This document shows positions 16,103-50,552 of a stretch of 51,019 bases of DNA, piece by piece. Where the stretch lies: positions 1 through 51,019 of IMG/VR virus record IMGVR_UViG_3300037264_001118. One strand, given 5' to 3'. Numbering within the stretch: position 1 is the stretch's first letter; the number at the start of each line of letters is the position of its first letter. Under the pieces are notes generated by a model, which saw only the letters and a list, made by a program, of their open reading frames with translations, was not told the origin of the DNA and did not search any database. A program made the position numbers and the translations under genes. The DNA comes from a virus.

Positions 16103-16176
16103 TGGCCCGTCGTCTAATGGTAGGACCGGGGACTTTGAATCCCCGTATCTAGGTTCGAATCCTAGCGGGCCAGCCA
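16103..16176 (+). tRNA. tRNA-Gln (anticodon TTG)
   Basis: Cloverleaf with acceptor TGGCCCG/CGGGCCA, D arm GTC..GAC, anticodon arm CGGGG-ACTTTGAA-type loop giving TTG, T arm AGG..CCT region with TTCGAAT, and an encoded CCA end. It would read CAA (and CAG by wobble). It sits between the SSB-like gene and the DNA polymerase gene. Confidence 0.93.
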
Positions 16177-23685: not shown

Positions 23686-23693
23686 GGTCAAGG

Positions 23694-23733
23694 AAAGGCT
23701 CCCCACCCCCCAAAAGGGGGGCCTTTTTCTTTT
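23694..23733 (+). terminator. cassette 1 terminator
   Basis: CCCCCC/GGGGGG stem with AAAA loop (23706-23721), extended by AAAGG/CCTTT across a 7-base bulge, then TTTTTCTTTT. Ends cassette 1. Confidence 0.85.
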
Positions 23734-24286: not shown

Positions 24287-24305
24287 CCCCCGACCCCGGC
24301 CAGTA

Positions 24306-24336
24306 GAAAGGCCCCCGAAAGGGGGCTTTTTTATTT
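24306..24336 (+). terminator. cassette 2 terminator
   Basis: GCCCCC-GAAA-GGGGGC stem-loop (24311-24326) flanked by AAAG and followed by TTTTTTATTT. Confidence 0.9.
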
Positions 24337-27841: not shown

Positions 27842-28208
27842 GACCCGATACGGCGTCGAAGTCAAGACGACACGCAAGCCCGGGGGCCATGAGTGGTTCA
27901 AATGCCCCGACGTGTCCGGCGAGTCTCACCGTACCCCATGCCGCTTTTGCGACGGGGGCCTTGGTTGGTGTATCCGTTGCGACGGGGCCGAAATCGAATT
28001 GACCAAGACTTGCCCCGGGCGTAAGTTGACACGGGAGGAACGCGCGGCAATCACGGACGGGCGGCTTAACTTCGTCAACGGTCGTTGGATTCGAAAGACT
28101 GTTGGGGCGCGTGGCGGAACGGCATACGCGGCGGTTTCAAAAACCGTTGGGCTTAACGCCCGTGGGGGTTCGAATCCCCCCGCGCCCACCAAACAGAAAA
28201 GGGATTGA
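27834..28208 (+). CDS. Cys-rich protein whose frame runs through tRNA-Leu
   Basis: A 124-residue frame. The believable part is residues 1-90: CPDVSG...CRFCDGG..CIRCDG...CPGRKLT, a zinc-ribbon-like region, then a helix. From codon 91 the frame passes through the tRNA-Leu gene (28105-28191), so the last 30 residues are translated tRNA sequence, with stop TGA at 28206. If RNase P trims the tRNA, this mRNA loses its stop codon. Either the product is normally made before processing or the functional gene has lost its original stop. Confidence 0.6.
   Translation: MAKTRYGVEVKTTRKPGGHEWFKCPDVSGESHRTPCRFCDGGLGWCIRCDGAEIELTKTCPGRKLTREERAAITDGRLNFVNGRWIRKTVGARGGTAYAAVSKTVGLNARGGSNPPAPTKQKRD
28105..28191 (+). 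tRNA. tRNA-Leu (anticodon CAA)
   Basis: Type II tRNA with acceptor GGGCGCG/CGCGCCC, anticodon stem GCGGT/ACCGT with loop TTCAAAA giving CAA, a long variable arm (GGGC..GCCC), T arm GGGGG-TTCGAAT-CCCCC and encoded CCA. It reads TTG, a very common Leu codon in these genes. Confidence 0.93.
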
Positions 28209-28220
28209 TAGTAGGACCAT

Positions 28221-28296
28221 GGCCCCATCGTCTAGTGGACTAGGACGACGGCTTTTCAAGCCGTTAACCGGGGTTCGAATCCCCGTGGGGCTACCA
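28221..28296 (+). tRNA. tRNA-Glu (anticodon TTC)
   Basis: Acceptor GGCCCCA/TGGGGCT-type pairing, anticodon stem ACGGC/GCCGT with loop TTTTCAA giving TTC, T arm CGGGG-TTCGAAT-CCCCG, encoded CCA. It reads GAA, the preferred Glu codon here. Confidence 0.93.
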
Positions 28297-29959: not shown

Positions 29960-31717
29960 ATGGAACAGGGGGGAACGGTCAAGCGTCGGGTCGTGGTACG
30001 TCGGGGCGTTCGTCCCATCGTCCCCGCCCCTGTCCCCATCGTTCCACAAATCCGGGGCATGGTGGACCCTAACTTCGTAGAGAACTTGACCCACGAAGGC
30101 AAGTACATAGAGCGTTTACTAATGATCCGTGATAAGCGTGGGTCGGTAATCCAATTCAATTTGAATCCGGTTCAACGCCGGATCATGGAAGTAAGAAAAC
30201 AGATTCGCGCATCCGGTAAACGCATCCGGCTTTTGATTCTCAAGTCCCGGCGACAGGGCGTAACGACTTTGGAGCAAGCCCTATCGTTCAAGGGCGTTGC
30301 GTCGGAGAACAACTATCAAGCCTTGACGCTGGCCCACAACGACAAGGCCACGGAAAAGATTTTCCGAATCGCAAACATGTTTTACGAATTCCTTCGGGAA
30401 GACTATAAGCCCCGTCGCTTGACCGCATCGAACAAGCGCGACCTAAACTTCCCCGACCTTCATTCCCTGTTCAGCATTGGGACGGCTGGCGGTCGTGGTA
30501 CTGGTCGAAGCGAAACCCTAAACAAGTTCCATTGGTCCGAAGTGGCATGGAGCCCGGGGACCAAGGAAGACCAGCGCGAACTACTGGCCGGACTCACGGA
30601 AGCCGCATCCCACGGCGAAGGCACGTTGGAAACGACGGCCAACGGCGTTGGGGATTTGTTCCATGAAAAGTTCGTTGAAGCCATGCGGGGCGGCAACGAA
30701 TGGACGGCCTTGTTTTTCCCGTGGTGGGCCGACCCCACGTACCGGGAGCCCGCCAAGCCCGAAGAATGCGCGTACATCATGGCGAACCTAACCGAAGAAG
30801 AAGCCCGGTTGGTTAGTCGCCATGGCTTAGACGCGCTCCAAATCAAATGGCGTCGGGCTCAAATGCGGGAACTTGGACGGCTGTTCCAACAGGAGTACCC
30901 GGAGGATTGGGAAACCTGTTTCATTGTGTCCGGCCAATCCTTTTTCGAAAAAGCAATCATCAACGACCTATTCCAGTCGGCGCGCGACCCCATCGAAGAA
31001 CGTTGGAACGGCGACCTTCGTATATGGACGCGGCCCATTCCCGGTCGTCGCTATATCATCGGCGCGGACGTGGCCGAAGGCATCAAGGGCGGCAATTGGT
31101 CCATGGCCGGATTCTTGGACGCCGAATCAGGGGAGCAAGTCGCGGCCTTGCGTGGGCATTGGACCCCGGAAGAGTTCGCCCGGCGCATGGTGTTAATCGC
31201 CCATGAGTACAGCGGCGAGAATAACGCCGAATACCCCTTGCTTGCCGTCGAACGAAACAACCACGGCCATTCCTGCCTAAACACTTTGGCGAACACGTAC
31301 AATTACCCCAACCTTTACTATCATCGGGAGTACGACGCCCGGGGCAAGGAAGCCCCCACGCTTGGCTTTCCCACCACGCCCAAGACCCGGCCTATCATGC
31401 TGGACGATCTACGGGAAGCCGTCGAAAAGCGGTACATGGTCGCCCATGATCGGATCATGCTTGACGAATGCCGGACGTTCGGCCCCAACGACCGGGGCAA
31501 GTATGAAGCCCTGAACGACGCCGAAGACGATACGATTTTCGGTTGGGGCATTGCTTGGCAAATCCGGCAAGCGTCCGTCCGCCGTGGGGAAGCGTCAATA
31601 TCCCCGTCCTATGAAGCGTCCATGCAAGCCGCGCAATCCGCGCGGGTCTTCCCGTCCGGGGGGATGGAACCTATGACGGTTGGTTCCCTTAACCAAACGC
31701 CCGGGAGGATTTTCTAA
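29960..31717 (+). CDS. terL: terminase large subunit
   Basis: A 585-residue protein. ATPase: deviant Walker A KSRRQGVTT (95-103), Walker B-like FHWSEVAW (190-197, Glu194), coupling motif LETTANG (223-229). Nuclease: RYIIGADVAEG with Asp370, a later acidic motif in LLAVERNNHG, and AEDDTIFGWGIAW near the C-terminus. It packages DNA into proheads with the portal. Start ATG 29960, 6 bases after TerS-like stop; the portal begins 1 base after its stop. Confidence 0.93.
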   Translation: MEQGGTVKRRVVVRRGVRPIVPAPVPIVPQIRGMVDPNFVENLTHEGKYIERLLMIRDKRGSVIQFNLNPVQRRIMEVRKQIRASGKRIRLLILKSRRQGVTTLEQALSFKGVASENNYQALTLAHNDKATEKIFRIANMFYEFLREDYKPRRLTASNKRDLNFPDLHSLFSIGTAGGRGTGRSETLNKFHWSEVAWSPGTKEDQRELLAGLTEAASHGEGTLETTANGVGDLFHEKFVEAMRGGNEWTALFFPWWADPTYREPAKPEECAYIMANLTEEEARLVSRHGLDALQIKWRRAQMRELGRLFQQEYPEDWETCFIVSGQSFFEKAIINDLFQSARDPIEERWNGDLRIWTRPIPGRRYIIGADVAEGIKGGNWSMAGFLDAESGEQVAALRGHWTPEEFARRMVLIAHEYSGENNAEYPLLAVERNNHGHSCLNTLANTYNYPNLYYHREYDARGKEAPTLGFPTTPKTRPIMLDDLREAVEKRYMVAHDRIMLDECRTFGPNDRGKYEALNDAEDDTIFGWGIAWQIRQASVRRGEASISPSYEASMQAAQSARVFPSGGMEPMTVGSLNQTPGRIF

Positions 31718-31718
31718 G

Positions 31719-33227
31719 ATGGGTCTTCGAAACTGGCTTGGATTTGGTAGCGGTACGGCCCTTGCCCATACGCCGGACGCACTAACCCCCGCCCCCGCCG
31801 AAGGTTCGTTGCTCCATCAATTCTTCGGGGATTCAAAAGTCTTAGGGGACGCAATCAAGTTGTTGGGCGTCTTCAATCCGCGCGAAGTGGGAACGCGGAC
31901 GCGGTTGTTGATGCGTTGTGACCCCGACGTTGCCTTTGGGCTGGCAATCCTCCGGGCTCCGATCATCAACATGAACTATGCCGTTGAATCCAACGACCCG
32001 GAAATTGCGGCGTTCGTCAAGGCCGCGCTTCGTCCCGTCTATCGCAAATTGGCGACGGGTCAAAGCATGTCGTTACACTTCGGACGCCAGCTATCCGAAA
32101 AGGTTTGGGAAACGGGGCCGTTCACCGTCACGGATCAAAGCGACGTGACCGGGGATAAGACGACCAAGACTTACCCGAACGCTTGGACCTATCACGACTT
32201 CAAGGCGATTGATCCGCGTTCCTACGTCCTGTTGATTGACAGGGAAAAGGACCAGTTCGGGGGCGTCCAACAGAATACGCCCAAGGTCGGCGCGGAAGCA
32301 CGTCCCCCGGTCGGGCCGGAAAAGGTCGTCCTATGGTCCTTCCGCAAGGAAGAAGTTTGGGGACACTTGGACGGCTTCCCCATGTCCGATCAATGTTATG
32401 AACCGTGGTGGGGCAAAGCGGCCACGAACCTTTTTTGTAATCGGTACTTCGAACGCAAGGCCGACCCCGCATACAAGGCAATCGCGGATTCCCAAATCCA
32501 ATTGGGTAACGGGCAAAAGGGCGACGGCTTCGCGTTCATCATGCAAGCCATTCTTGGCTTGAAGGGCGGCGGGGTAATCGCGCTTCCCAACAAACGCGAC
32601 CAAGTAGGCAACCTATTGTTTGACGTTCAACCCTTGGCCGACGACAAACGCGGCGACATGTTCCAACAGCGGTTGGACGGCTTTTCCCAACAAATCCTTC
32701 GGGGCCTTTGGATTACGGACAAGGCCGGAACGTCGGACGGGACGGGCTCCCTTGCCATGGCGGAAGTCCACGCCGAAACCATGTCGTCCATGATGCAAGG
32801 CATCCTTAACGAATGGTTGGACGACGTGGTTAACCCGCAAGTCGTCAACCCCTTGGTCCTATACAACTTCGGACCCGAAGCCCTGAAGAACAGCCAAACC
32901 CGGTTGGTTTCCGGCGGGCTGTCGTCCGGTACGAAAGACCTTTTCAAAACCCTGTTGGTTCAGTTGCTCCAATCGGAACAGTTGACGGACGGGGGCGGCA
33001 AGGTCACGTTGGCCGACCGGATCGACGGCGTTTCTTTGCTTCAGGAATTGGGCGTCAAGATGCGTAGCGCGGAAGAACTGGAAGAGATATCCAAGGCGAA
33101 GGCGGCACGGGTTCCCGACATTGACCCGGGCGCGCCCGCGCGCGAGAGTGACGAAGAACCCAACGACGAAGAGATTGCGGACGAACTGATTAAGAAGGGC
33201 GTGATGGAGGGGGACGAAGTGGAATAG
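31719..33227 (+). CDS. portal protein (DUF935/gp29-like)
   Basis: A 502-residue protein with GGGAGG upstream. The pattern TRTRLLMRCDPDVAFGLAILRAPIINMNYAVES, then GRQLSEKVWE, resembles the DUF935/Mu gp29-type portals, and the gene follows the large terminase directly. The acidic C-terminus (EEPNDEEIADELIKKG) is typical of portal tails. A folded RNA candidate begins on the base after its stop codon. Confidence 0.85.
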   Translation: MGLRNWLGFGSGTALAHTPDALTPAPAEGSLLHQFFGDSKVLGDAIKLLGVFNPREVGTRTRLLMRCDPDVAFGLAILRAPIINMNYAVESNDPEIAAFVKAALRPVYRKLATGQSMSLHFGRQLSEKVWETGPFTVTDQSDVTGDKTTKTYPNAWTYHDFKAIDPRSYVLLIDREKDQFGGVQQNTPKVGAEARPPVGPEKVVLWSFRKEEVWGHLDGFPMSDQCYEPWWGKAATNLFCNRYFERKADPAYKAIADSQIQLGNGQKGDGFAFIMQAILGLKGGGVIALPNKRDQVGNLLFDVQPLADDKRGDMFQQRLDGFSQQILRGLWITDKAGTSDGTGSLAMAEVHAETMSSMMQGILNEWLDDVVNPQVVNPLVLYNFGPEALKNSQTRLVSGGLSSGTKDLFKTLLVQLLQSEQLTDGGGKVTLADRIDGVSLLQELGVKMRSAEELEEISKAKAARVPDIDPGAPARESDEEPNDEEIADELIKKGVMEGDEVE

Positions 33228-33403
33228 CGATTCGCTTAGACCCCTGCCCATGTCCCACAATTGGGATACTGCCCTACTTATCCGCCAGCCGGATAGGGCG
33301 TAACAAACATTACGGGACCGGACAGGGGTTTAAGCGGATCGGGCAACCTTCGGCCTTGTGGCCGGAAAGAGTTGCAGTATTAGGGCGAAAGCCCAACGAT
33401 CCG
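33228..33403 (+). ncRNA. structured RNA candidate between portal and next structural gene
   Basis: The element begins directly after the portal TAG. Bases 33228-33246 pair with 33323-33341 as an uninterrupted 19-bp helix (two G·U). Inside are hairpins TCCCA/TGGGA (33253-33266), GCCCTA/TAGGGC plus TCCG/CGGA with a 4-base bulge (33271-33299), and GTAA/TTAC (33300-33313). A second part has GCAAC/GTTGC enclosing TTCGGCC/GGCCGGA (33343-33375) and GGGC-GAAA-GCCC (33383-33394). CGGATCG 33335-33341 can instead pair perfectly with CGATCCG 33397-33403. No T run follows. Function unknown. Confidence 0.6.
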
Positions 33404-33424
33404 ACGATTGGAAAGGCGGCAACC

Positions 33425-34066
33425 ATGGGTCGCGTCAAATTCTTGGGGCTCCGCGCGGTCGGGGCCATTCGCTTGAATGCGAATCCGGCGGACGGCGAAA
33501 CCGTGACCATTGGCCCGGTCCCGGCGGTCGGCGGCGTGACCGGAAAGCGTTTTGAGTTCGACAACAACGCGGCGGTTACGGCTGGCAACATCCTTGTTAC
33601 CATTGGCGGTTCGGCGGCTTTGTCCGCTATCGCCCTTCGGGACAAGATCAACACGAACAAGCCGACCCCCGTTGGCATCACGGCGGAAATCGACCCCGTG
33701 GATACGTCCACGGTTCGCTTGTACGCCGACGCTCCGGGCGCGGGCGGCAATCTCGCGCTGGCGGACACGGGCGCGGCCATTGACGTTTCTTCCGCCGTTA
33801 TGACGGGCGGCGAAGGGTCCGGCAACCAGACGTTGCATCGTGGCGAACACGTCGTTACGGCGTTGGACGTGGCGGCGGGTAACGTGATGATTGACACGGG
33901 CCTTTCGGGTCCGCGATTCCCGCAAGTCGATTGCTTCAGCGCGGCGGGCCTTCAGAAAGCCCTTACGTCGTTGGTTATCGTCGTCGGTTCGAAAATCCAA
34001 CTGGACTTCGACGGGGCCACGAACCCCGTTGCGGGCGACAAGATTTCGTGGGGAGCCTACGAATAA
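33425..34066 (+). CDS. structural protein, possible fibre/decoration domain
   Basis: A 213-residue protein from ATG 33425 with GGAAAGG upstream. It is Ala/Gly/Thr/Val-rich with beta-like stretches (GRVKFLGLRAVGAIRLNANP, AGNILVTIGGSAALSAIALRDKIN, STVRLYADAPGAGGNLALADTG), like the repeating beta domains in fibres or decoration proteins. The DNA frame extends upstream into the folded element but lacks a start site there. It begins the fibre-like module. Confidence 0.7.
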   Translation: MGRVKFLGLRAVGAIRLNANPADGETVTIGPVPAVGGVTGKRFEFDNNAAVTAGNILVTIGGSAALSAIALRDKINTNKPTPVGITAEIDPVDTSTVRLYADAPGAGGNLALADTGAAIDVSSAVMTGGEGSGNQTLHRGEHVVTALDVAAGNVMIDTGLSGPRFPQVDCFSAAGLQKALTSLVIVVGSKIQLDFDGATNPVAGDKISWGAYE

Positions 34067-34081
34067 GGTTTGGGTGGCGCG

Positions 34082-34127
34082 GGGGGCTAACGGCCTAGGC
34101 TTGTTAAACCGAAGGCCGTTGGCCCCC
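34082..34127 (+). other. strong hairpin between structural genes
   Basis: GGGGGCTAACGGCCT (34082-34096) pairs with AGGCCGTTGGCCCCC (34113-34127): 15 bp with one G·U, 16-base loop, no T run. It lies between 34066 and the ATG at 34146 and may stabilise or process the message. Confidence 0.6.
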
Positions 34128-34145
34128 TGTTGTAGGGCTTAAAAC

Positions 34146-34604
34146 ATGGGCCAAGACCAGTCACTTGAACGCGGCGTCGAAAGTGTCGGGGAAATGCGGA
34201 AGGTTTCGTATCCCCAACATAGAGATACCCTGTTTGCCCATTTCAACCAGTTCGTCTATCGGTTCAACGTGGGTTCGAACGGGGCCGACGATGGGGATAC
34301 GGTCGTCAAGCCGGACACAACCCACCCCTTGCAACCCGGACGGTGGGAAAAGACGCCCATTGGGGCGGCTGGCGGGGGAGGGGGCGGAACCTTTGTCGAA
34401 AACGAATTCACGGCAACCGCCGCGCAAACCGTGTTCACTTTGTCGCAAGCCTTCGCGCTTGCGGGTTTGTCCATCTTGTTTATCAACGGCGTAGGGTACG
34501 CGGAGGGTGCGGAGTACACGATTGCCGGGACCACGCTTACTTGGTTGGATGTTCCCTTCGCTTTGGAAGCGGGGGACCGTGTTGTTGTGAAATTCCAAAC
34601 GTAA
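34146..34604 (+). CDS. fibre-associated structural protein
   Basis: A 152-residue protein. N-terminal 65 residues resemble the protein at 36756 (GADDGDTVVKPDTTHPLQPGRWEK against ADDGNLVIKPDNILPAQAGRFVRE), a short domain seen in phage fibre-type proteins. A Gly6 linker follows (AAGGGGGG), then a beta domain (TQVFTLSQAF-like, SILFINGVGYAEGAEYTIAGTTLTWLDVPFALEAGDRVVVKF) typical of tail fibre modules. Confidence 0.7.
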   Translation: MGQDQSLERGVESVGEMRKVSYPQHRDTLFAHFNQFVYRFNVGSNGADDGDTVVKPDTTHPLQPGRWEKTPIGAAGGGGGGTFVENEFTATAAQTVFTLSQAFALAGLSILFINGVGYAEGAEYTIAGTTLTWLDVPFALEAGDRVVVKFQT

Positions 34605-34622
34605 TAGGAAAGGGCTGAACGA

Positions 34623-35924
34623 ATGTCACAAATCAAGGGCAAACAACTTGCCGACGCGCCTAACGGCGTGACTACGGGCAAGATCAACGACCTTGCGGTT
34701 ACGACCGCGAAGATTGCCGACGCCAACGTTACGACCGTCAAGATTCTGGACGCCAATATCACGACCGCGAAGTTGGCGGCGGGCGTCCTTTCGGCGGACG
34801 CGGCGGGACGCGCGAAAATGGCGGCGGGTTATTTCGACTTGGCGCAAGTCGGAACGACTTTCGCGGCGGCGGCTATCGCCCTTTCGAAGCTGGAAGAAGC
34901 CGTCATTCAGGCGGACGGCGGGCAAGCGCACACGGCCAATCAGTCCATGGGCGGATTCAAGTTGACCAACGTTGGGACGCCGACCGTTGGGACCGACGCG
35001 GCCAACAAGGACTATGTGGACAACGCGATTGCGGGGCTGGCGTGGAAGGATTCCGTCCGGGTCGCCACGACCGCGAACACGGCCCTTACGGGATTGCTCA
35101 CGATTGACGGGGTTACGCTGGTCGCCAACGACCGAATCCTTGTCAAGAACAACACGGCCCCGGCGGAAAACGGAATTTGGGTTGCGGCGTCCGGCGCATG
35201 GACGCGGGCGACCGACTTTGACACACAAAACGAAGCCCTTTCGGGAACGGTCTTTGTTGAAGAAGGGTCAACCCAAGCGAACACGTCTTGGACCATGACC
35301 ACGGACGCGCCTATCACGATTGGAACCACGGGTCTTACGTGGGTTCAGTTCGCGGCGTCCGTTGCCCTTGTCGCGGGCGCGGGCTTGCTTGCCACGGGCA
35401 ACACTTGGTCCGTGGAACTGGCCCCCCTTGTTGCTGGACTTGAGTTCGACGCGGGCGGCGACGGTGGAAGGCTGAAGATCAAGATTCCGGCGGTTGCAAG
35501 CGTTCTACTGTTGAACGGCTCCGGGGAAATCACGGTCCAGAAAGACGGAAAGACGATTTCCGGGGCCTCAAACGGAATCCTTCGCGCGGCCCATCCTGTC
35601 GGCTTGAACAAGTTCCAAACCCCTTCGGTTGCGGCTGGCGAAGGTTCAACCACGGGCCTTACGCTTGGCGCATCCCCCGCCGAAGCCGTGGGTTCGGGCG
35701 GACCCATTCCGCACGTTCGGGTATTGGTCAACGGCATCGGTCAACGCTTGGGCAACGGCACGAAGACGGGCGTTGATTGCTACTTCAGCGCGGACGGCGG
35801 CACGACGGCGCGGACGTATACCGCCACGGTTGCCGGGGATACCCTTTATTGGAACGCGACGACGGCGGGTTTCGGGCTGGACGCAACCGACGTTGTGGAC
35901 ATGGATTACAACAGCATTTCCTAA
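34623..35924 (+). CDS. tail fibre protein
   Basis: A 433-residue protein. Residues 15-55 hold four 10-residue repeats (VTTGKINDLA, VTTAKIADAN, VTTVKILDAN, ITTAKLAAGV), a stalk pattern. Then MGGFKLTNVGTPTVGTDAANKDYVD and WKDSVRVATTANTALTG, VTLVANDRILVKNNTAPAENGIW, hallmark phage tail-fibre segments. The C-terminus is a beta-rich receptor-type domain. Found here between portal and capsid genes rather than at the tail end. Confidence 0.85.
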   Translation: MSQIKGKQLADAPNGVTTGKINDLAVTTAKIADANVTTVKILDANITTAKLAAGVLSADAAGRAKMAAGYFDLAQVGTTFAAAAIALSKLEEAVIQADGGQAHTANQSMGGFKLTNVGTPTVGTDAANKDYVDNAIAGLAWKDSVRVATTANTALTGLLTIDGVTLVANDRILVKNNTAPAENGIWVAASGAWTRATDFDTQNEALSGTVFVEEGSTQANTSWTMTTDAPITIGTTGLTWVQFAASVALVAGAGLLATGNTWSVELAPLVAGLEFDAGGDGGRLKIKIPAVASVLLLNGSGEITVQKDGKTISGASNGILRAAHPVGLNKFQTPSVAAGEGSTTGLTLGASPAEAVGSGGPIPHVRVLVNGIGQRLGNGTKTGVDCYFSADGGTTARTYTATVAGDTLYWNATTAGFGLDATDVVDMDYNSIS

Positions 35925-35938
35925 TGGTTTAACCCCGG

Positions 35939-35970
35939 CCCTTCCCGGGAAACCGGGGAGGGTCGTTTTA
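35939..35970 (+). terminator. terminator-like hairpin after fibre gene
   Basis: CCCTTCCCGG (35939-35948) pairs with CCGGGGAGGG (35953-35962) across a GAAA tetraloop; TCGTTTTA follows. The short T run suggests partial termination. Confidence 0.6.
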
Positions 35971-35984
35971 AGGGATTAGGAAAA

Positions 35985-36743
35985 ATGAAGACTAGAGTAA
36001 AGCAACTGGAACCCGGGGCTAACGGGGAATTCCTTCAGACTTCCGGCGGCGTTCCGGTTTGGGGCGCGGCCCCGGGCGGGTCCGGCGTAACCGCCGTGGG
36101 CTCCCCGTCTATCACGAAGATGGAACCGATTTCCCTTACGGGTCCGGCGTCCTACGTGGCGGGCGGATTTACGGCCACGTTCGGCAACCTTGCCGCGCTG
36201 GTCCGGGCCATCGTTTGCCTAGTCTCTTCCGCGACCTATTACCATTTCAAGATAACGGCCAAGTCGTCCAATCAAGTTACGATCAAAGCGTTTCGGAACG
36301 TCAACGCGCATACGCATACGTTCACGGGGACGACGCATACCCATTCGTTGACGATGAACGCGCATACGCATACGTTCACGGGGACCGCGCACGGGCATAC
36401 TTTGACCATGAACGCCCACGGGCATACTTTGGTTGCGACGGGCAACAGCACGGGCGTTCTTACGGCTGGTATGTCCACGACGGGCTTTCATATCCCGGTG
36501 GGCAACCCGACCCGTACCGTTGCGGCGGGTTCCGCGTCGGGCGTCGGGAACACCACGGACACGGGTACGGTTGCGAACACCACGGCGGCGGGAACCAACG
36601 CGAATACGGTTGATACCGGGACCGTGGGTAACACGGTCGCGGCGGGGACCAACGCGAGTACGTCGGCGGACGCGCTGGAAGAACTTGGGGCGGGCGTAAA
36701 CTTGTCGGCTGTTACGTTGGAACTTTTGGGCTTTGGTACTTAA
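35985..36743 (+). CDS. fibre protein with HxH metal-binding repeats
   Basis: A 252-residue protein. Residues 109-153 contain five HxH motifs at exact 9-residue spacing (H109, H118, H127, H136, H145), consecutive units such as HTHTFTGTT and HTHSLTMNA. HxH motifs in trimeric phage fibre needles coordinate iron. A second low-complexity repeat TGTVxNTxAAGTNA lies near residues 185-225. Residues 11-24 (GANGEFLQTSGGVPVW) are a common phage fibre collar segment. Confidence 0.85.
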   Translation: MKTRVKQLEPGANGEFLQTSGGVPVWGAAPGGSGVTAVGSPSITKMEPISLTGPASYVAGGFTATFGNLAALVRAIVCLVSSATYYHFKITAKSSNQVTIKAFRNVNAHTHTFTGTTHTHSLTMNAHTHTFTGTAHGHTLTMNAHGHTLVATGNSTGVLTAGMSTTGFHIPVGNPTRTVAAGSASGVGNTTDTGTVANTTAAGTNANTVDTGTVGNTVAAGTNASTSADALEELGAGVNLSAVTLELLGFGT

Positions 36744-36755
36744 ACGGGGGACCAA

Positions 36756-37475
36756 ATGAGCGAAGCGCATAAGATTGTCGAAACCATTACGGAACTTCGT
36801 AAGGTTTCGGACCACGCGGGGAAAGATCGAATCATGGTTCGGCCTTCCCGCGACTTCTACATTTACGAAGCCAACAACCTTTCGGCGGACGACGGGAACC
36901 TTGTCATAAAGCCCGACAACATCCTACCCGCGCAAGCGGGGCGGTTCGTTCGGGAAGTCCAAGACCCTTCGGACTTGTCGCAACCGCTGGCCCGGCACGT
37001 CGTTTCCGCCGACCAGTTCCTTGACGTGGGGCCGACTGATTGGGCGGTCAACGCCCCGGCTCCCCTGTCGTCGGATTCCATCGTCCCGGCCCTGCCCGTC
37101 CGTCGCTTTGACGACACGGCGGAAGAAGGCGTTGGGTTCTTGACCACGGTTCCCACGGGCGCGGGAAGCGTTCGGATTTCGTTCAAGCATCGCGCGCAAA
37201 CGGCCCCCGGCGGGGCTACGACGGTCGCGCCGAAGGTCTATTCCAGAAATCTCCCCCACAATGCCGCCCCCGGCGCGTGGTCGGCTGGCGTGGCCCTTGC
37301 GACCCTTCCCGTTCCCGCCAACGCTCAAATCCAGTACGGGGCCGCGCAAGTGTTCACGCTTGCGGCCTTGGGGCTGGTCGCCGGGGAACTGGCGTTGCTG
37401 GAAATGACGCGCGTTACCGGGGGGCTGGTTGGGGACTGGACGGTTTCCGAAGTCCTGTTGGAGTTCCTGAACTAA
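36756..37475 (+). CDS. structural protein of fibre module
   Basis: A 239-residue protein. Its N-terminal ~65 residues share the ADDGNLVIKPDNILPAQAGRFV pattern with the protein at 34146, a probable virion-anchoring domain. The C-terminal 110 residues are beta-like (AGSVRISFKHRAQTAPGG, ALGLVAGELALLEMTRVTG). The next gene overlaps its stop by one base. Confidence 0.7.
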   Translation: MSEAHKIVETITELRKVSDHAGKDRIMVRPSRDFYIYEANNLSADDGNLVIKPDNILPAQAGRFVREVQDPSDLSQPLARHVVSADQFLDVGPTDWAVNAPAPLSSDSIVPALPVRRFDDTAEEGVGFLTTVPTGAGSVRISFKHRAQTAPGGATTVAPKVYSRNLPHNAAPGAWSAGVALATLPVPANAQIQYGAAQVFTLAALGLVAGELALLEMTRVTGGLVGDWTVSEVLLEFLN

Positions 37476-38152
37476 TGGCTATGGAATTCGCCAACAACGG
37501 GGGCGCGAACGTCATAGCGTCGGACGCGGCGTTCCTTCCCCCGACCCCGTTTTCGTCCATTTCGTTTTGGGTGAAAATGGTTTCGCTGGTCCCCGCGCTT
37601 CAACGGTTTTTCGGGAACGCGACCAATTGGGAAGTACGGGTCAACAGCGCGGGGGTAGTCGTCACCGACGTATACAATCCTTCGGACGGGGCCGCGTCCG
37701 TGTCGGTTCTAGTCGCGGGCGCGTGGGCGCATGTCGCTTGCAACGCCGAAGACAACGGGGTTGACTCGATTACGGACATGCACTTGAACGGAGTTTTTCA
37801 AGCTGTCCGAACTGTCCCCCGTTCGGCGGTCGCGTCCATTGTCCAAACGATAGGGAACCGAACGGGCATGGCGTCCGCCCAAGGATTGAACGCGGTCCTT
37901 GACGATTTCCGGGTTTATAATCGCAAGCTGTCCGCTTCCGAAATCCAAAGCATTTTCGCGGCCCGTGGCCGGGATTCGATCCGTCAAGGGTTGTTGTCGC
38001 GCGTCCTGTTCAATGGGGGAGCCCCGGGAACTTCGCCCGTGGGCGTGGGCTCCGTCAAGGACCACGGCCCGAACGGGGTTCATTACGGGCCTTCGGGCGC
38101 GCCCGTGTACGCGGAAAAGTTCGTAAGCGGAAGTCGTCGGAGAAGCGCATAG
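37475..38152 (+). CDS. LamG/ConA-like lectin-fold protein (paralogue 1)
   Basis: A 225-residue protein. SISFWVKMVSL, VLVAGAWAHVACNAED and LDDFRVYNRKLSASEIQSIFAARG follow the concanavalin A-like/LamG domain pattern, a sugar-binding or structural sandwich. It ends EKFVSGSRRRSA. The next gene is a diverged copy, so the pair arose by tandem duplication. Likely a fibre-tip or decoration adhesin for a host surface glycan. Confidence 0.8.
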   Translation: MAMEFANNGGANVIASDAAFLPPTPFSSISFWVKMVSLVPALQRFFGNATNWEVRVNSAGVVVTDVYNPSDGAASVSVLVAGAWAHVACNAEDNGVDSITDMHLNGVFQAVRTVPRSAVASIVQTIGNRTGMASAQGLNAVLDDFRVYNRKLSASEIQSIFAARGRDSIRQGLLSRVLFNGGAPGTSPVGVGSVKDHGPNGVHYGPSGAPVYAEKFVSGSRRRSA

Positions 38153-38153
38153 C

Positions 38154-38879
38154 ATGGCCGTTGAATTTGTCGCGGCGTCTTCGCAACGGGCGAACTTGGG
38201 TCTTTCCCTGCCCTTCCTGAACGGTAAGCCGGGCGGCTCCGTTATGGCTTGGGTCAAAATGACTTCGCTTTCGGGAACCCGATCCTTGACCGAACAGGCC
38301 ATAGGCCCGCCCCCGGGGACTAGCGCGACTTCCCGGTTGTTCTTGGGGGTGCTTGGGAGCGGCGTACTTGAGTTGGGAGCCCGTGACGCGGACGGCGGCG
38401 GGTCGTTCGTCAACACGGGTACGCTTTCCATCGGTACGGGGGTTTGGGCGCATGTCGCGGGCGTGGTGGACATTGCCGGGGACGCATCGCATATTTACAT
38501 CAATGGGGCCTTGCATAAAACGCAAGCGTTCGCGTTCCCCAACGCCAGCTTCCCCGCCACGAATTCCAAGAACGGCCATGTTGGGTCCAATGACGACGGC
38601 GGGGCGCAGTTCTTCGACGGGCTGATTTCTGATTTCAGAATGTACGACCGGGCGTTGAAGGCTGAAGAAATCCAAACCATTTTCGCGGCACGGGGTCGGG
38701 ATACGATCATTGCCGGAATGGTCTTGAATCATCGCATGGCGGGCCGTCCGCCCGGGGCTGTCGCGTCCGTGGTCGGGGAATTGAAAGACGTTTCGATTTC
38801 ACAACGTAACGCCGACCCGGTAAATGGTCCGGTCTATCGGGAATCTTTTGTTTCTGGTTATCGGAGAAGGAGCGCATAA
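38154..38879 (+). CDS. LamG/ConA-like lectin-fold protein (paralogue 2)
   Basis: A 241-residue protein starting 1 base after paralogue 1. SVMAWVKMTSLSG, TGVWAHVAGVVDIAGDASHIYINGA and ISDFRMYDRALKAEEIQTIFAARGRDTI align with paralogue 1, and the end ESFVSGYRRRSA is nearly the same. The central loops differ, which would suit different receptor specificities. Confidence 0.82.
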   Translation: MAVEFVAASSQRANLGLSLPFLNGKPGGSVMAWVKMTSLSGTRSLTEQAIGPPPGTSATSRLFLGVLGSGVLELGARDADGGGSFVNTGTLSIGTGVWAHVAGVVDIAGDASHIYINGALHKTQAFAFPNASFPATNSKNGHVGSNDDGGAQFFDGLISDFRMYDRALKAEEIQTIFAARGRDTIIAGMVLNHRMAGRPPGAVASVVGELKDVSISQRNADPVNGPVYRESFVSGYRRRSA

Positions 38880-42997: not shown

Positions 42998-43444
42998 ATG
43001 AACGACCATGTTGCATCCCTTCCGGGGATGGGTCCGAAGCGCGAGTTGGAAACGGTCGCGTTTCTGTTGGACAACAACCATTTGATGCGGCGGGGAATTC
43101 GCATCCACAAGGATACCGACGATATCGTTAACGTCGGCAAAGAGTACAAGTTGACGGCGGGCCTTGCGTTGGTCCGCGTCGAAGTCGGCGCGAACAAGGA
43201 CCGTTACGTTGACGCGGGCCATGTGGACGCGCCCGTTGCGGCGTCGGTCGTGGAAGCCGTGTTGCTCATGGAATCCCTGTCGTTGTTCGACGCGGACGCC
43301 GTGCGCGAAGACAAGAACGCTTCCGGTTTGATCCATGGTCGCGTGGACGAATCCAAGGTCCGCTTCGGCACGGGCGACCCGGCGTACATCAACGCGATCA
43401 AGGCCGCGCTGAAGTTGGTGGAGTTCGAAAAGCCCGCCCCCTAG
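42998..43444 (+). CDS. head decoration protein (lambda gpD-like position)
   Basis: A 148-residue protein with GGAGGAA upstream. Beta-rich with KEYKLTAGLALVRVEVG, directly upstream of the major capsid gene, as for lambda D and similar stabilisers. Also upstream is a short hairpin CGAAA/TTTCG at 42972-42985. The assignment rests mainly on order and size. Confidence 0.7.
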   Translation: MNDHVASLPGMGPKRELETVAFLLDNNHLMRRGIRIHKDTDDIVNVGKEYKLTAGLALVRVEVGANKDRYVDAGHVDAPVAASVVEAVLLMESLSLFDADAVREDKNASGLIHGRVDESKVRFGTGDPAYINAIKAALKLVEFEKPAP

Positions 43445-43523: not shown

Positions 43524-44534
43524 ATGATTGACGTAGAACTGCTGAAGCTGGAATCGTTGATCGGCATGATTAACGATTTCCGGCCCGGCGACCTTCGGCT
43601 TTCGGCTTCGGGCATTTTGCCCGAACAGTCGGGGCCGGGCCAGTCGTTCAATTGGGACATCTTGGGCATTCAACGCGACGTGGACACGTTCGAAGGCCGC
43701 ATGTCCCCGGCGGGTATCCGCAAACTTACCGTCCTGAAGAATCAGTCGGCGGTTTTGGCGCGGACTTTCAAATCCACGTTCGTTCCGGGGGCCGTGCTGA
43801 TCGACCTTCGGAACTTCGGTTCAGAGTCCCGCCAGCGCATCGCGGAAGACACGGTTGGGCGTGAACTTCAGTCGCTTTCGCGGTTGATCGACCGCCAAAA
43901 CGAATTCATGTATTCCCAAGCCCTGCAAGGTTCGCTTGCCATGACGATTGACGGCGTTCCGCATACCGTGAATTACGGTTTCAGCGGTTCGCACGTTCTC
44001 ACGGTCGGCGGCGGCATTCCGGCGTCGTGGGCCTTGCCCGCGTCGGATATCGTCGCGGATATCCGCAACATGAAGGTTCGGATTGCGGAAGACTCCGGGT
44101 TCCAAGCCGCGACGGTTTGGACTTCGACGGAGGTTATCGAATACCTTATCAAAAACGACTTCGTGAATTCCTACTTCGCTTCGACGCCCGCCGGGGTTCA
44201 GGCGTTGACGGAAGGCACGATTGGCCGTTTCATGGGGTTGAACTGGATTGCCTACGACGGCACGTACAAGGACGCGGCGGGGGCCGTGCAACGGTTCATC
44301 CCGAAAAACAAGTTGATCGTGACCCCCGGCCCCGACGCTGAATGGGGCTTCTTCCGCAAGGGTTCGGACGCGGTTCCCACGGACGACGGACGCGACATGC
44401 AGGAAGTCATTGGGCGTTACGCCTATTCCGACTTGTCGAAGAACCCGGCTTCCATCGGGCTTTACGCGGGCGAAGTCCGCTTGCCCATCATTCGCATTCC
44501 CGACGCGCTGGTTGTGGCGACGGTGACGCCGTAA
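43524..44534 (+). CDS. major capsid protein (HK97 fold, lambda gpE-like)
   Basis: A 336-residue protein, close to the length of lambda gpE. It has the expected N-arm, a long helix (QRIAEDTVGRELQSLSRLIDRQNEFMYSQAL), and a C-terminal P-domain-like strand set ending EVRLPIIRIPDALVVATVTP. It follows decoration and scaffold genes and precedes connector genes. A strong hairpin follows the stop. Confidence 0.85.
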   Translation: MIDVELLKLESLIGMINDFRPGDLRLSASGILPEQSGPGQSFNWDILGIQRDVDTFEGRMSPAGIRKLTVLKNQSAVLARTFKSTFVPGAVLIDLRNFGSESRQRIAEDTVGRELQSLSRLIDRQNEFMYSQALQGSLAMTIDGVPHTVNYGFSGSHVLTVGGGIPASWALPASDIVADIRNMKVRIAEDSGFQAATVWTSTEVIEYLIKNDFVNSYFASTPAGVQALTEGTIGRFMGLNWIAYDGTYKDAAGAVQRFIPKNKLIVTPGPDAEWGFFRKGSDAVPTDDGRDMQEVIGRYAYSDLSKNPASIGLYAGEVRLPIIRIPDALVVATVTP

Positions 44535-44558: not shown

Positions 44559-44586
44559 GGGGCGGGGGTCGAAAGGCCCCCGCCCC
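44559..44586 (+). terminator. GC-rich hairpin after major capsid gene
   Basis: GGGGCGGGGG (44559-44568) pairs perfectly with CCCCCGCCCC (44577-44586), 8-base loop, no T run. It probably stabilises the capsid message or reduces readthrough to the connector genes. Confidence 0.55.
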
Positions 44587-47371: not shown

Positions 47372-47836
47372 ATGGAAACGCCCATGCTAAAAAATGCCGA
47401 AGGCGAAAAGGGACAGGGCTTCGGGCTTTTGCCTGAAGCCCTGTCCAACCGCCGGAAGGTAGTCAAGGCCGGGGAAAGTACGGTTGTTGTTGAAAAGTGG
47501 TCGGCTCAAAAGCTGATCCTTATTATCAACTACGTATCCGGCGCAATCGCGGGCCTTTCGGATTCGACGTTGCGGAGCATCGGCACGGATGCGCGAACCG
47601 CCGCAACGTCCATGATTTCCGTTCTTGGCGAAAAGGTTTTGGGCCTTGTGGAACTGTCCGTCCGGCTGGAAGACCGGGCCAAGATCAAGGACATGGACGG
47701 CGAAGAGTTCTTGGACGTGTTAGAAGCCGTAATGGATTTGAACCTTACGGAGAGTTTCATAAAAAAAGTAAAGGGGCTCATGGCAAAGTTAAAGCCGTTG
47801 TCAACGGGCAACGGGCCGAATACCCAATCGAAGTAG
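47372..47836 (+). CDS. tail assembly chaperone, short product
   Basis: A 154-residue zero-frame product with GGGGGG upstream. Helical (KWSAQKLILIINYVSGAIAGLSDSTLRSIG). The slippery heptamer AAAAAAA at 47761-47767 lies near its end, so a fraction of ribosomes make a longer product. Equivalent to lambda gpG. Confidence 0.85.
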   Translation: METPMLKNAEGEKGQGFGLLPEALSNRRKVVKAGESTVVVEKWSAQKLILIINYVSGAIAGLSDSTLRSIGTDARTAATSMISVLGEKVLGLVELSVRLEDRAKIKDMDGEEFLDVLEAVMDLNLTESFIKKVKGLMAKLKPLSTGNGPNTQSK

Positions 47837-48231: not shown

Positions 48232-50552
48232 TGGCGGGTCCGCCGTTTGAAGCTGGTTCGATCCTGATTGCCCTTCGTGCAAGCGCGGAGAATTTGCAAA
48301 AGGAAATCGGGAAGGCGAATCAAACCCTTCAACAGTTTGGAAAGGAAGTCCAAACCGTCGCCACAAAGACGGAGCAAACTACTTCCAAGGTCGTTGACGG
48401 TTTCTCCGCGATAGACCGGAAGACCCTTCAGCTTACGGCGAGAATCGCGCAATTCTCCCAAAGGCTGTTGGGTCTTCAGTTTATCCTACAATCGTTCGCG
48501 GCTTCGTCGGGGCAAAGCGGCGAAGGGCTGGACAAGTTCAGGGAGAAGACCCAAGGCGCGGTTGCCGCCCTTACGACGTTCGCGGGAATCGTGACCCTGT
48601 TTCCGAACAAGATTGGTTTGATCGTCGGGGCTATTGCCGCGCTTGCAATCCTGATAGCCGACTTGGTTAAGCAATTCAACCAAGCAAGTGAAGCCGTAAA
48701 GCGCGTGGAGCAAGCCGCCGCCGACATTGACAAATTGCGCGCCGACCGACTTAAAAAACAGTCCGAAGAAGAAATCCGAATCAACCAACTTCGTTTGGCC
48801 GGGGTCAAGGACGCGGGCAACGCGGAGCAACGGCTTACTTCTATCATCGAATCCCAAAAGGCTTTGGCGGAAGAGATAACCAAGACCGAAGCCGCACGAC
48901 TTCAGGCCGTCAAGGACCGGGCGGAAGTTGAAGCCCGCATAACCGAAGACATTAGGCGCAATCCCACGCGGGTTATTTCGGCGGACGAATTCGGCAACGT
49001 GGTTGAAGTGGCCCGCAACTTGGGCGAAGAACTGGCGGACAACAAAGAAATTTCCCGCTTAACTCAAGAGTCCACGAAGCTAGGGGCCGCGCTTGGTAAG
49101 GCGCGCGAAGAATTCATCAAGTTCGGCAAGGAAGCGGAAGACATTCAAAACAAAGTCAAACTTGACGAAAAGTTTGACGACGCCATTAAAGCCTTTATCG
49201 GGTTCGGAAGCCAAGCGGCCCGGGTCAAGGTCCAGCTTGAACAGGGGTTGCTTACCCCGGCGGAAGCGGCGTCGGCACAACTAAGCATTGCCCGCGCGGA
49301 ACTGGAAACGTTTATCGCGCTTGGGGCCAACGCTTCAAAGCGGATCGGCGCAACCCTTATCGACACGAAGCCCGGAGAATCGGCGTTTGACGCCCTTACC
49401 CGAAGGGTTTTGGAGTTGCAAGCGGCGGCTAAGGGAATTGAAATCAAGGCCCTGTCCGAAACGGAGTTGCGGAAATCCATTGAAGCCTTCCGGCAAATTG
49501 GCGTCGAACTGGATAAGGTCGGGCGCGACGTGGGGGCCGGGTTGCTCACGCCCGCGCAAGGCGTAGAAGCCGCGTTGACCAACGCCCGGGACCAATTGCG
49601 GGCGTTCTTGGATGCAACCCAAGACCAGCAATTACAAATTGCCGTGGAAGTCTTGGGCGTGGATTCGGCGGAAGAAGCAATCCAGCGGTTGACCGTTTCC
49701 CTTCAGGAAGCGGAAGAAGCGGCCAAGCAAATTAAGTTGGACGAACAACAAGCGGAGAGTTTCCGCGAGTTCCAACGGGTTGTGGAAGCCACGCCCGAAG
49801 CCTTGGGCGAAGTCGAAGCCCGTTTGAAAAAGGGTTTTATTACACCCCTGCAAGCCGCCGAACAACGCGCCCGGTTGCTGGAAGACGCCATAATCCGGGT
49901 CGGGGAAGCGGCGTCCAAGGTCGAAGGGCCTAGGCTGTCCGAAGCCTTGGAAGAAGCGTCGGTCGAAGTGGACCGCTTGCTTTCGGAGTTGGAGAAGGAC
50001 CGACAGATTATCGCGGACGTACAAATCCGCCAAGACTTCCAAGAATCTTTCGCGGAGCCCTTTAGCGCGGCTGTCGGGGACGCCATTACGCGGGGCATTC
50101 TTGAAGGCCAAGACGCTATGGAAGTATTGGCGAACGTGGGCGAAAACCTGTTCACCAACTTCTTAAATGACGCCGTGGCCGGGTTTCAAAAGGGCATGAC
50201 GGCGGCTTTAACCGCCGTCGCGGGCGCGGGCGGGGAAGCCCTAGGGGGCCTACTTAGCGCGGCGGTCGGCATTGCCGGGTTTTTCCTTTCAGGAAGGGAC
50301 GACCAAGATACCAACCAATCCTTCAACGACGTGAACGGCCAAGTTGAATCAACCCAAGCGGTACGCGGGGTCGTTGCCGGGCCGGAATCGGTTTCAATCG
50401 CGGCGGTCGGGGAAAACTTGCGGCGGGCCATGGTCGGGGTCGAAGCCCGGTTGGACGCGCTTATCCGTGTTTCTGTTCAGATTAGGGACGGTCAAGGGGT
50501 TGGGGGTACGTCGGACGGTACGCCTTACGCCGGGTCCGTTCCGACTTCGTAG
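48231..50552 (+). CDS. tape measure protein
   Basis: A 773-residue protein, predicting a tail of about 115 nm by the usual 0.15 nm per residue rule. Long helical heptad-rich regions, hydrophobic segments near residues 118-145 (FAGIVTLFPNKIGLIVGAIAALAILIADLV) and 655-690 (AVAGAGGEALGGLLSAAVGIAGFFLSG). It has internal repeats of the type GLLTPAEAASAQLSIAR / GLLTPAQGVEAALTNAR / GFITPLQAAEQRARLLE. The start overlaps the chaperone stop. Confidence 0.92.
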   Translation: MAGPPFEAGSILIALRASAENLQKEIGKANQTLQQFGKEVQTVATKTEQTTSKVVDGFSAIDRKTLQLTARIAQFSQRLLGLQFILQSFAASSGQSGEGLDKFREKTQGAVAALTTFAGIVTLFPNKIGLIVGAIAALAILIADLVKQFNQASEAVKRVEQAAADIDKLRADRLKKQSEEEIRINQLRLAGVKDAGNAEQRLTSIIESQKALAEEITKTEAARLQAVKDRAEVEARITEDIRRNPTRVISADEFGNVVEVARNLGEELADNKEISRLTQESTKLGAALGKAREEFIKFGKEAEDIQNKVKLDEKFDDAIKAFIGFGSQAARVKVQLEQGLLTPAEAASAQLSIARAELETFIALGANASKRIGATLIDTKPGESAFDALTRRVLELQAAAKGIEIKALSETELRKSIEAFRQIGVELDKVGRDVGAGLLTPAQGVEAALTNARDQLRAFLDATQDQQLQIAVEVLGVDSAEEAIQRLTVSLQEAEEAAKQIKLDEQQAESFREFQRVVEATPEALGEVEARLKKGFITPLQAAEQRARLLEDAIIRVGEAASKVEGPRLSEALEEASVEVDRLLSELEKDRQIIADVQIRQDFQESFAEPFSAAVGDAITRGILEGQDAMEVLANVGENLFTNFLNDAVAGFQKGMTAALTAVAGAGGEALGGLLSAAVGIAGFFLSGRDDQDTNQSFNDVNGQVESTQAVRGVVAGPESVSIAAVGENLRRAMVGVEARLDALIRVSVQIRDGQGVGGTSDGTPYAGSVPTS

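Follow-up and report, generated by a model that had tools for sequence, protein, structure and literature searches.

In an uncultured phage, an elaborate structured RNA occupies the gap that separates the portal gene from a series of virion-protein-like genes, and we find the same RNA in a related phage, where base changes in the stems preserve their pairing. The window analyzed here is the whole 51,019-nucleotide stretch of IMG/VR record IMGVR_UViG_3300037264_001118. We regard the structure as almost certainly real and conserved, on a comparison of two sequences that is below R-scape-grade power for coevolution.

Searches of IMG/VR with the portal, terminase, and capsid proteins identify a single close relative, IMGVR_UViG_3300006865_000002 (hereafter L121), a colinear and circularly permuted genome of 50,867 bases. 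Its source metagenome, 3300006865, is Larsen N4, a geothermally affected sediment at 33 °C and pH 7.2 (PMC8098120).

Position and extent of the portal-gap RNA

The gap between the portal stop codon (33225 to 33227) and the next ATG at 33425 measures 197 nt, and the structured RNA fills most of it. Arm A begins directly 3′ of the stop, and the 3′ module ends about 20 nt before the start codon. A preliminary description of this DNA had reported a gap of this size, almost filled and lacking a T run, and our analysis agrees. The corresponding gap in L121 is 170 nt long and contains the same RNA, which is present as a single copy in each genome. The features of the region are as follows.

29477 onward: DUF5681 protein gene, upstream of the terminase gene
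29960–31717: large terminase gene (PHROG 2); protein 80% identical in L121
31719–33227, + strand: Mu-type portal gene, the upstream neighbor (Pfam Portal_Mu, 2e-12; PHROG 113); protein 85% identical in L121
33228–33234, + strand: basal 5′ strand of helix A, pairing with 33335–33341 as the alternative to helix B; five of seven pairs kept and two broken in L121
33235–33249, + strand: upper 5′ strand of helix A, pairing with 33320–33334; three compensatory double changes, one pair gained, and one lost in L121
33250–33319, + strand: apex of arm A, variable, with 70 nt here and 43 nt in L121; sequence, length, and fold all unconserved
33320–33334, + strand: upper 3′ strand of helix A, from the pair comparison with L121
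33335–33341, + strand: shared strand CGGATCG, partner of 33228–33234 (helix A base) or of 33397–33403 (helix B)
33343–33375, + strand: hairpin C, whose asymmetric internal loop CUUCGG / CCGGAAAGA is conserved; four compensatory double changes in the stem
33376–33382, + strand: junction strand between hairpins C and D, AGUAUUA (AGUGAUUA in L121)
33383–33394, + strand: hairpin D, GGGC-GAAA-GCCC (GGGG-CGUAAU-CCCC in L121); one compensatory double change, C33386-G33391 to G-C
33397–33403, + strand: 3′ strand of helix B, CGATCCG, closing the three-way junction; identical in L121, with one partner base C to U (C-G to U-G wobble)
33410–33416, + strand: probable RBS of the downstream gene, GGAAAGG, from its sequence and spacing
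33425–34066, + strand: downstream gene, 213 aa, without a PHROG or Pfam family above cut-off; protein 79% identical in L121

Synonymous-site conservation is not elevated at the end of the portal gene or at the start of the downstream gene, indicating that the RNA element is confined to the gap. Coding explanations for the gap were rejected. The portal gene ends with TAG, and a second in-frame stop four codons further on, in both phages, rules out readthrough. An N-terminal extension of the downstream gene across the gap is rejected on the L121 frame, which is open for only 11 codons upstream of the ATG, and indels between the two phages break the frame of any coding sequence within the gap.

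No promoter or terminator match is found in the portal-gap region of the window, and the gap has no T run. An intrinsic terminator was likewise rejected, as the gap lacks a GC-rich hairpin followed by a T run. In the L121 gap region, the only terminator-like match is on the minus strand and at chance level, and there is no promoter match. Thus, the RNA probably lies inside a longer transcript.

Fold of the RNA

Helix A comprises 19 contiguous pairs (33228–33246 with 33323–33341), including the wobbles U33232-G33337 and G33239-U33330, exactly where the preliminary description had placed a 19-bp helix with two G·U pairs. In a search of the whole window for gap-free helices with arms up to 120 nt apart, it has the second-best score; the top score is a match between two tRNA genes. 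Helix A scores 45.0, whereas the best helices in ten Markov-shuffled 51-kb controls, which keep the dinucleotide make-up of the window, score 33 to 40 and span 13 to 16 bp. Positions 33201–33360 form the second strongest fold among 636 tiled 160-nt segments of the record. For a 201-nt fold of the region, the + strand gives z = −5.2 and the − strand z = −6.0; fold energy alone is insufficient to decide the strand of the RNA.

The three hairpins earlier described within helix A are one of several possible folds of the apex; the minimum-energy fold differs, and the apex is unconserved (70 versus 43 nt). The second module is a three-way junction, in which helix B (33335–33341 with 33397–33403) closes hairpins C and D. 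Both hairpins had been recognized from the outset, the second of them as a GAAA hairpin, but the helix that closes the module and competes with the base of helix A had been missed.

Compensatory changes in L121

The two phages are about 77% identical in this region. We compared their structures at 39 pair positions, covering the upper part of arm A, helix B, hairpin C, and hairpin D, with residues mapped by hand along the helices. Twenty-seven pairs are unchanged, and 11 of the 12 changed pairs still pair. Changes on one side account for four pairs, three of which pair in L121. The other eight pairs have changed on both sides, at 33240/33329, 33243/33326, and 33245/33324 in upper helix A and in hairpins C and D as listed above, and all eight still pair in L121. 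The only pair lost among those compared is 33241/33328. One of the three one-sided changes that pair is C33247/A33322, a mismatch in the window that is U-A in L121. Permutation of the 3′ letters among the changed pairs gives P = 5e-4 for 11 of 12 and P = 0.002 for the double changes alone. Compensatory changes with intact flanking genes, as generally sought for a conserved structured RNA, are therefore present in one homologue. The preliminary description had proposed a phage structured RNA or leader and had named homologous stems without compensatory changes as the result that would speak against it; L121 shows the opposite.

Unpaired bases are conserved beside these changing stems. In the second (3′) module, 12 of the 13 mapped unpaired bases are identical between the window and L121, including those of the internal loop of hairpin C. 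Identical unpaired bases beside changing stems are the usual sign of tertiary or ligand contacts. A structure-blind MAFFT alignment also recovers the second module: for helix B and hairpin C, together with two pairs of hairpin D, 100% of cells are paired, compared with 22 to 49% when the 3′ partners are shifted by one to three columns. A shuffle of the MAFFT columns gave 67/500, which is a weak test because there are only two sequences.

The wobble pairs bear on the strand. On the + strand, G-U pairs occur at 33239/33330 and 33350/33365 in the window, and at 33340/33398 and 33240/33329 in L121. These would be A-C on the − strand, and thus the + strand RNA is probably the molecule under selection, as judged from these sequences. 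That the fold arises by chance from GC-rich non-coding DNA, or reflects a DNA-level element such as a cos or pac site or a mobile palindrome, is hardly credible. The late region is GC-rich and contains other inverted repeats, but the compensatory changes include wobble pairs specific to one strand, helix A beats all random controls, and the element is single copy.

Two mutually exclusive pairings

The shared strand CGGATCG can complete the 19-bp helix by pairing with CGATTCG (33228–33234), or form the three-way junction by pairing with CGATCCG (33397–33403). The base of helix A and helix B are thus mutually exclusive, and this holds in both phages. Ensemble energy, calculated without tertiary contacts, favors the full helix over the junction fold by about 6 kcal/mol in the window and about 3 kcal/mol in L121. 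Helix B is near-invariant, its one C to U change being retained as a wobble, whereas the basal 5′ strand of helix A has diverged at four of its seven bases. Evolution therefore speaks more for the junction fold, and energy for the full 19-bp helix.

These competing pairings raise the idea of a switch, riboswitch-like or protein-controlled, in which the partner chosen by 33335–33341 would set downstream translation. We consider this unlikely. In its favor, the two pairings exclude each other in both phages; C33340 has changed to U in L121 with helix A kept through G33229 to A and helix B through the wobble, and the energy gaps between the folds are within the range of ligand or tertiary stabilization. 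Against this, two basal pairs of helix A are broken in L121, and only two of the four changed positions still pair, which is near chance. The predicted cost of opening the RBS differs between folds by −0.3 to 3.5 kcal/mol, a small and inconsistent difference, and so the energy calculation does not support a translation switch. The downstream gene is also not metabolic as far as is known.

Searches for further members

In both genomes, tRNA is the only Rfam family matched at gathering level. At E values up to 10, the gap region yields nothing relevant, with two weak chance matches and no pRNA. No covariance model of a known riboswitch, ribozyme, or group I or II intron matches, and an HDV-like fold was rejected by hand, no strand being able to form P1. 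The earlier view that this RNA matches no terminator, tRNA, or known type of intron is thus supported, and the Rfam covariance check suggested at that time assigns no known family to the gap region. The window's tRNA genes, tRNA-Leu(CAA), tRNA-Glu(TTC), and tRNA-Gln(TTG), lie at 28105–28296 and 16103–16176, and the L121 genome also has three tRNAs.

The short exact pattern ACCCCTGCCCATGT was too unspecific when searched over IMG/VR. Motif scans of IMG/VR and 84,980 GTDB genomes returned, besides L121, only stretches with the forced motif in which the fold is absent. Other terminase matches in IMG/VR are distant (23 to 29% identical) and were rejected; among those inspected, L142 to L144 are from unrelated phages. 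A terminase search of genomes gave no match, and an INPHARED DNA search no real match. Because the consensus derives from two sequences, distant members may have been missed. At the search sensitivity used (IMG/VR, GTDB genomes, and INPHARED), this structured RNA is in no catalogue and belongs to a small group of uncultured phages.

Gene neighborhood and other structured gaps

Downstream of the RNA, positions 33425–38879 (end approximate) hold a virion-protein-like run: the family-less 213-aa protein, for which structure prediction gave no usable model (pLDDT 32), followed by fiber-, decoration-, and collar-like proteins. From 39404 onward come a nuclease, a minor head protein, a methyltransferase-like protein, and later the capsid protein.

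Stem-loops without clear T runs occur in other gaps of the late region (34079–34130, 35936–35965, and 44559–44586, the last behind the major capsid gene), at the same places in the L121 genome with changed stem sequences. Both genomes have a stem in the gap after 34066 (GGGGGGCUAACGGCC.../GGGGGGCUAACCGC...); the gap after 35924 has a stem at the same position in L121 with a different sequence; and in the gap after the capsid gene at 44534, the apex GGUCGAAAGGCC is conserved while the stems have changed. These long stems at matching places suggest that the phage uses RNA structure at gene boundaries, with the portal-gap RNA being the most elaborate case.

Other repeats and hairpins were noted in the window. 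Hairpins with T runs lie at 24302–24335 and 23692–23728. A 16-bp hairpin with one wobble, GGACAGGGCTTCGGGC TTTT GCCTGAAGCCCTGTCC, lies at 47411–47446 within the start of the coding gene 47372–47836, and a 12-bp version is found at G001 48802–48829. Several overlapping inverted repeats (GGTCCGCGTCGA...) occupy 43170–43297 in the coding gene before the capsid gene. Between 22607 and 25443, a "LYGIKS" element recurs in spurious minus-strand open reading frames, representing a repeated sequence between small genes.

The late-gap stems also invite a simpler reading of the portal-gap RNA, as a plain RNase III or exonuclease-stop site in which arm A is either cleaved or shields the ends of the mRNA, everything else being incidental scaffold. 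Arm A is a long, near-perfect stem directly behind a stop codon, with similar stems in other late gaps of both genomes, and in T7, RNase III classically acts on stems between genes. Nevertheless, we think this reading rather doubtful: conservation is strongest in the three-way junction and not in arm A, and the bulges and junction bases are identical in two phages that share about 77% identity in this region.

Possible role as a cis-acting intercistronic RNA

The explanation that we favor, with a probability that we put at about even, is that the RNA is a cis-acting intercistronic leader or processing element before the virion-protein cassette, separating its expression from that of terminase and portal. 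The RNA would be made on the + strand as part of a late mRNA, between the portal gene and the virion-protein cassette, as two joined modules: long arm A, and the three-way junction of helix B, bulged hairpin C, and hairpin D with its GNRA-like loop. Arm A, like the simpler stem-loops of the other late gaps, might mark a boundary of mRNA processing or stability, while the sequence-conserved junction would become the 5′ leader of the downstream segment. The junction may be bound by a putative phage or host protein or by a small ligand, and the outcome would be virion proteins made at a different level than terminase and portal. A pure processing site would not require conserved unpaired junction bases, and this counts against our favored explanation. 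Late gene control had been raised in the preliminary description; the position of the RNA is compatible with it.

Most known late control in tailed phages relies on promoters, terminators, and simple stems, and to our knowledge the late regions of these phages rarely contain elaborate RNAs whose unpaired cores are conserved. If an RNA absent from the catalogues keeps a fixed position ahead of virion genes, this would suggest that particle composition is tuned through RNA. The RNA from these two phages also provides a concrete covariance model for finding relatives.

Comparison with known systems

In phi29, the pRNA forms the interface between the connector and the ATPase gp16 (PMC6765105). The portal-gap RNA is of about the same length, has a three-way junction, and is associated with the portal, here by genomic neighborhood only. 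It differs in that the window phage has a standard large terminase and no pRNA match, and in that the RNA is embedded, without a promoter, in a run of late genes. Since the terminase is an ordinary one, a phi29-type pRNA is not supported; the earlier suggestion of such a packaging role fails on this terminase (PHROG 2), the Mu-type portal (Pfam Portal_Mu), and the missing match to the pRNA family. More broadly, a phage RNA that stands alone and works in trans, or that forms a component of the particle (for example, an analogue of packaging RNA next to the portal), seems quite improbable. Its compactness, its size of about 175 nt, its junction, and its place adjoining the portal gene fit such a molecule, but it has neither promoter nor terminator on its own strand, matches neither pRNA nor other Rfam families, accompanies an ordinary terminase, and lacks, by eye, conserved complementary loops for joining copies. 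As an analogy only, the packaging-RNA idea has a low probability. Very unlikely indeed is a new class of phage RNA, placed next to the portal where the terminase is an ordinary one, that would serve head assembly or packaging as an RNA or ribonucleoprotein component.

T7-type intercistronic stem-loops for RNase III or other processing also lie between virion genes, with no T run and no promoter of their own. The portal-gap RNA is far more complex: it has a three-way junction and an internal loop that are conserved in sequence.

Comparative genomics has yielded orphan motifs of structured RNA, with covarying stems and conserved unpaired bases and with no known ligand or function (for example, PMC2864571). 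The portal-gap RNA differs from these in having two members only, both from uncultured phages, in its place before virion genes, and in belonging to no Rfam family. Like them, it combines covarying stems with conserved unpaired bases.
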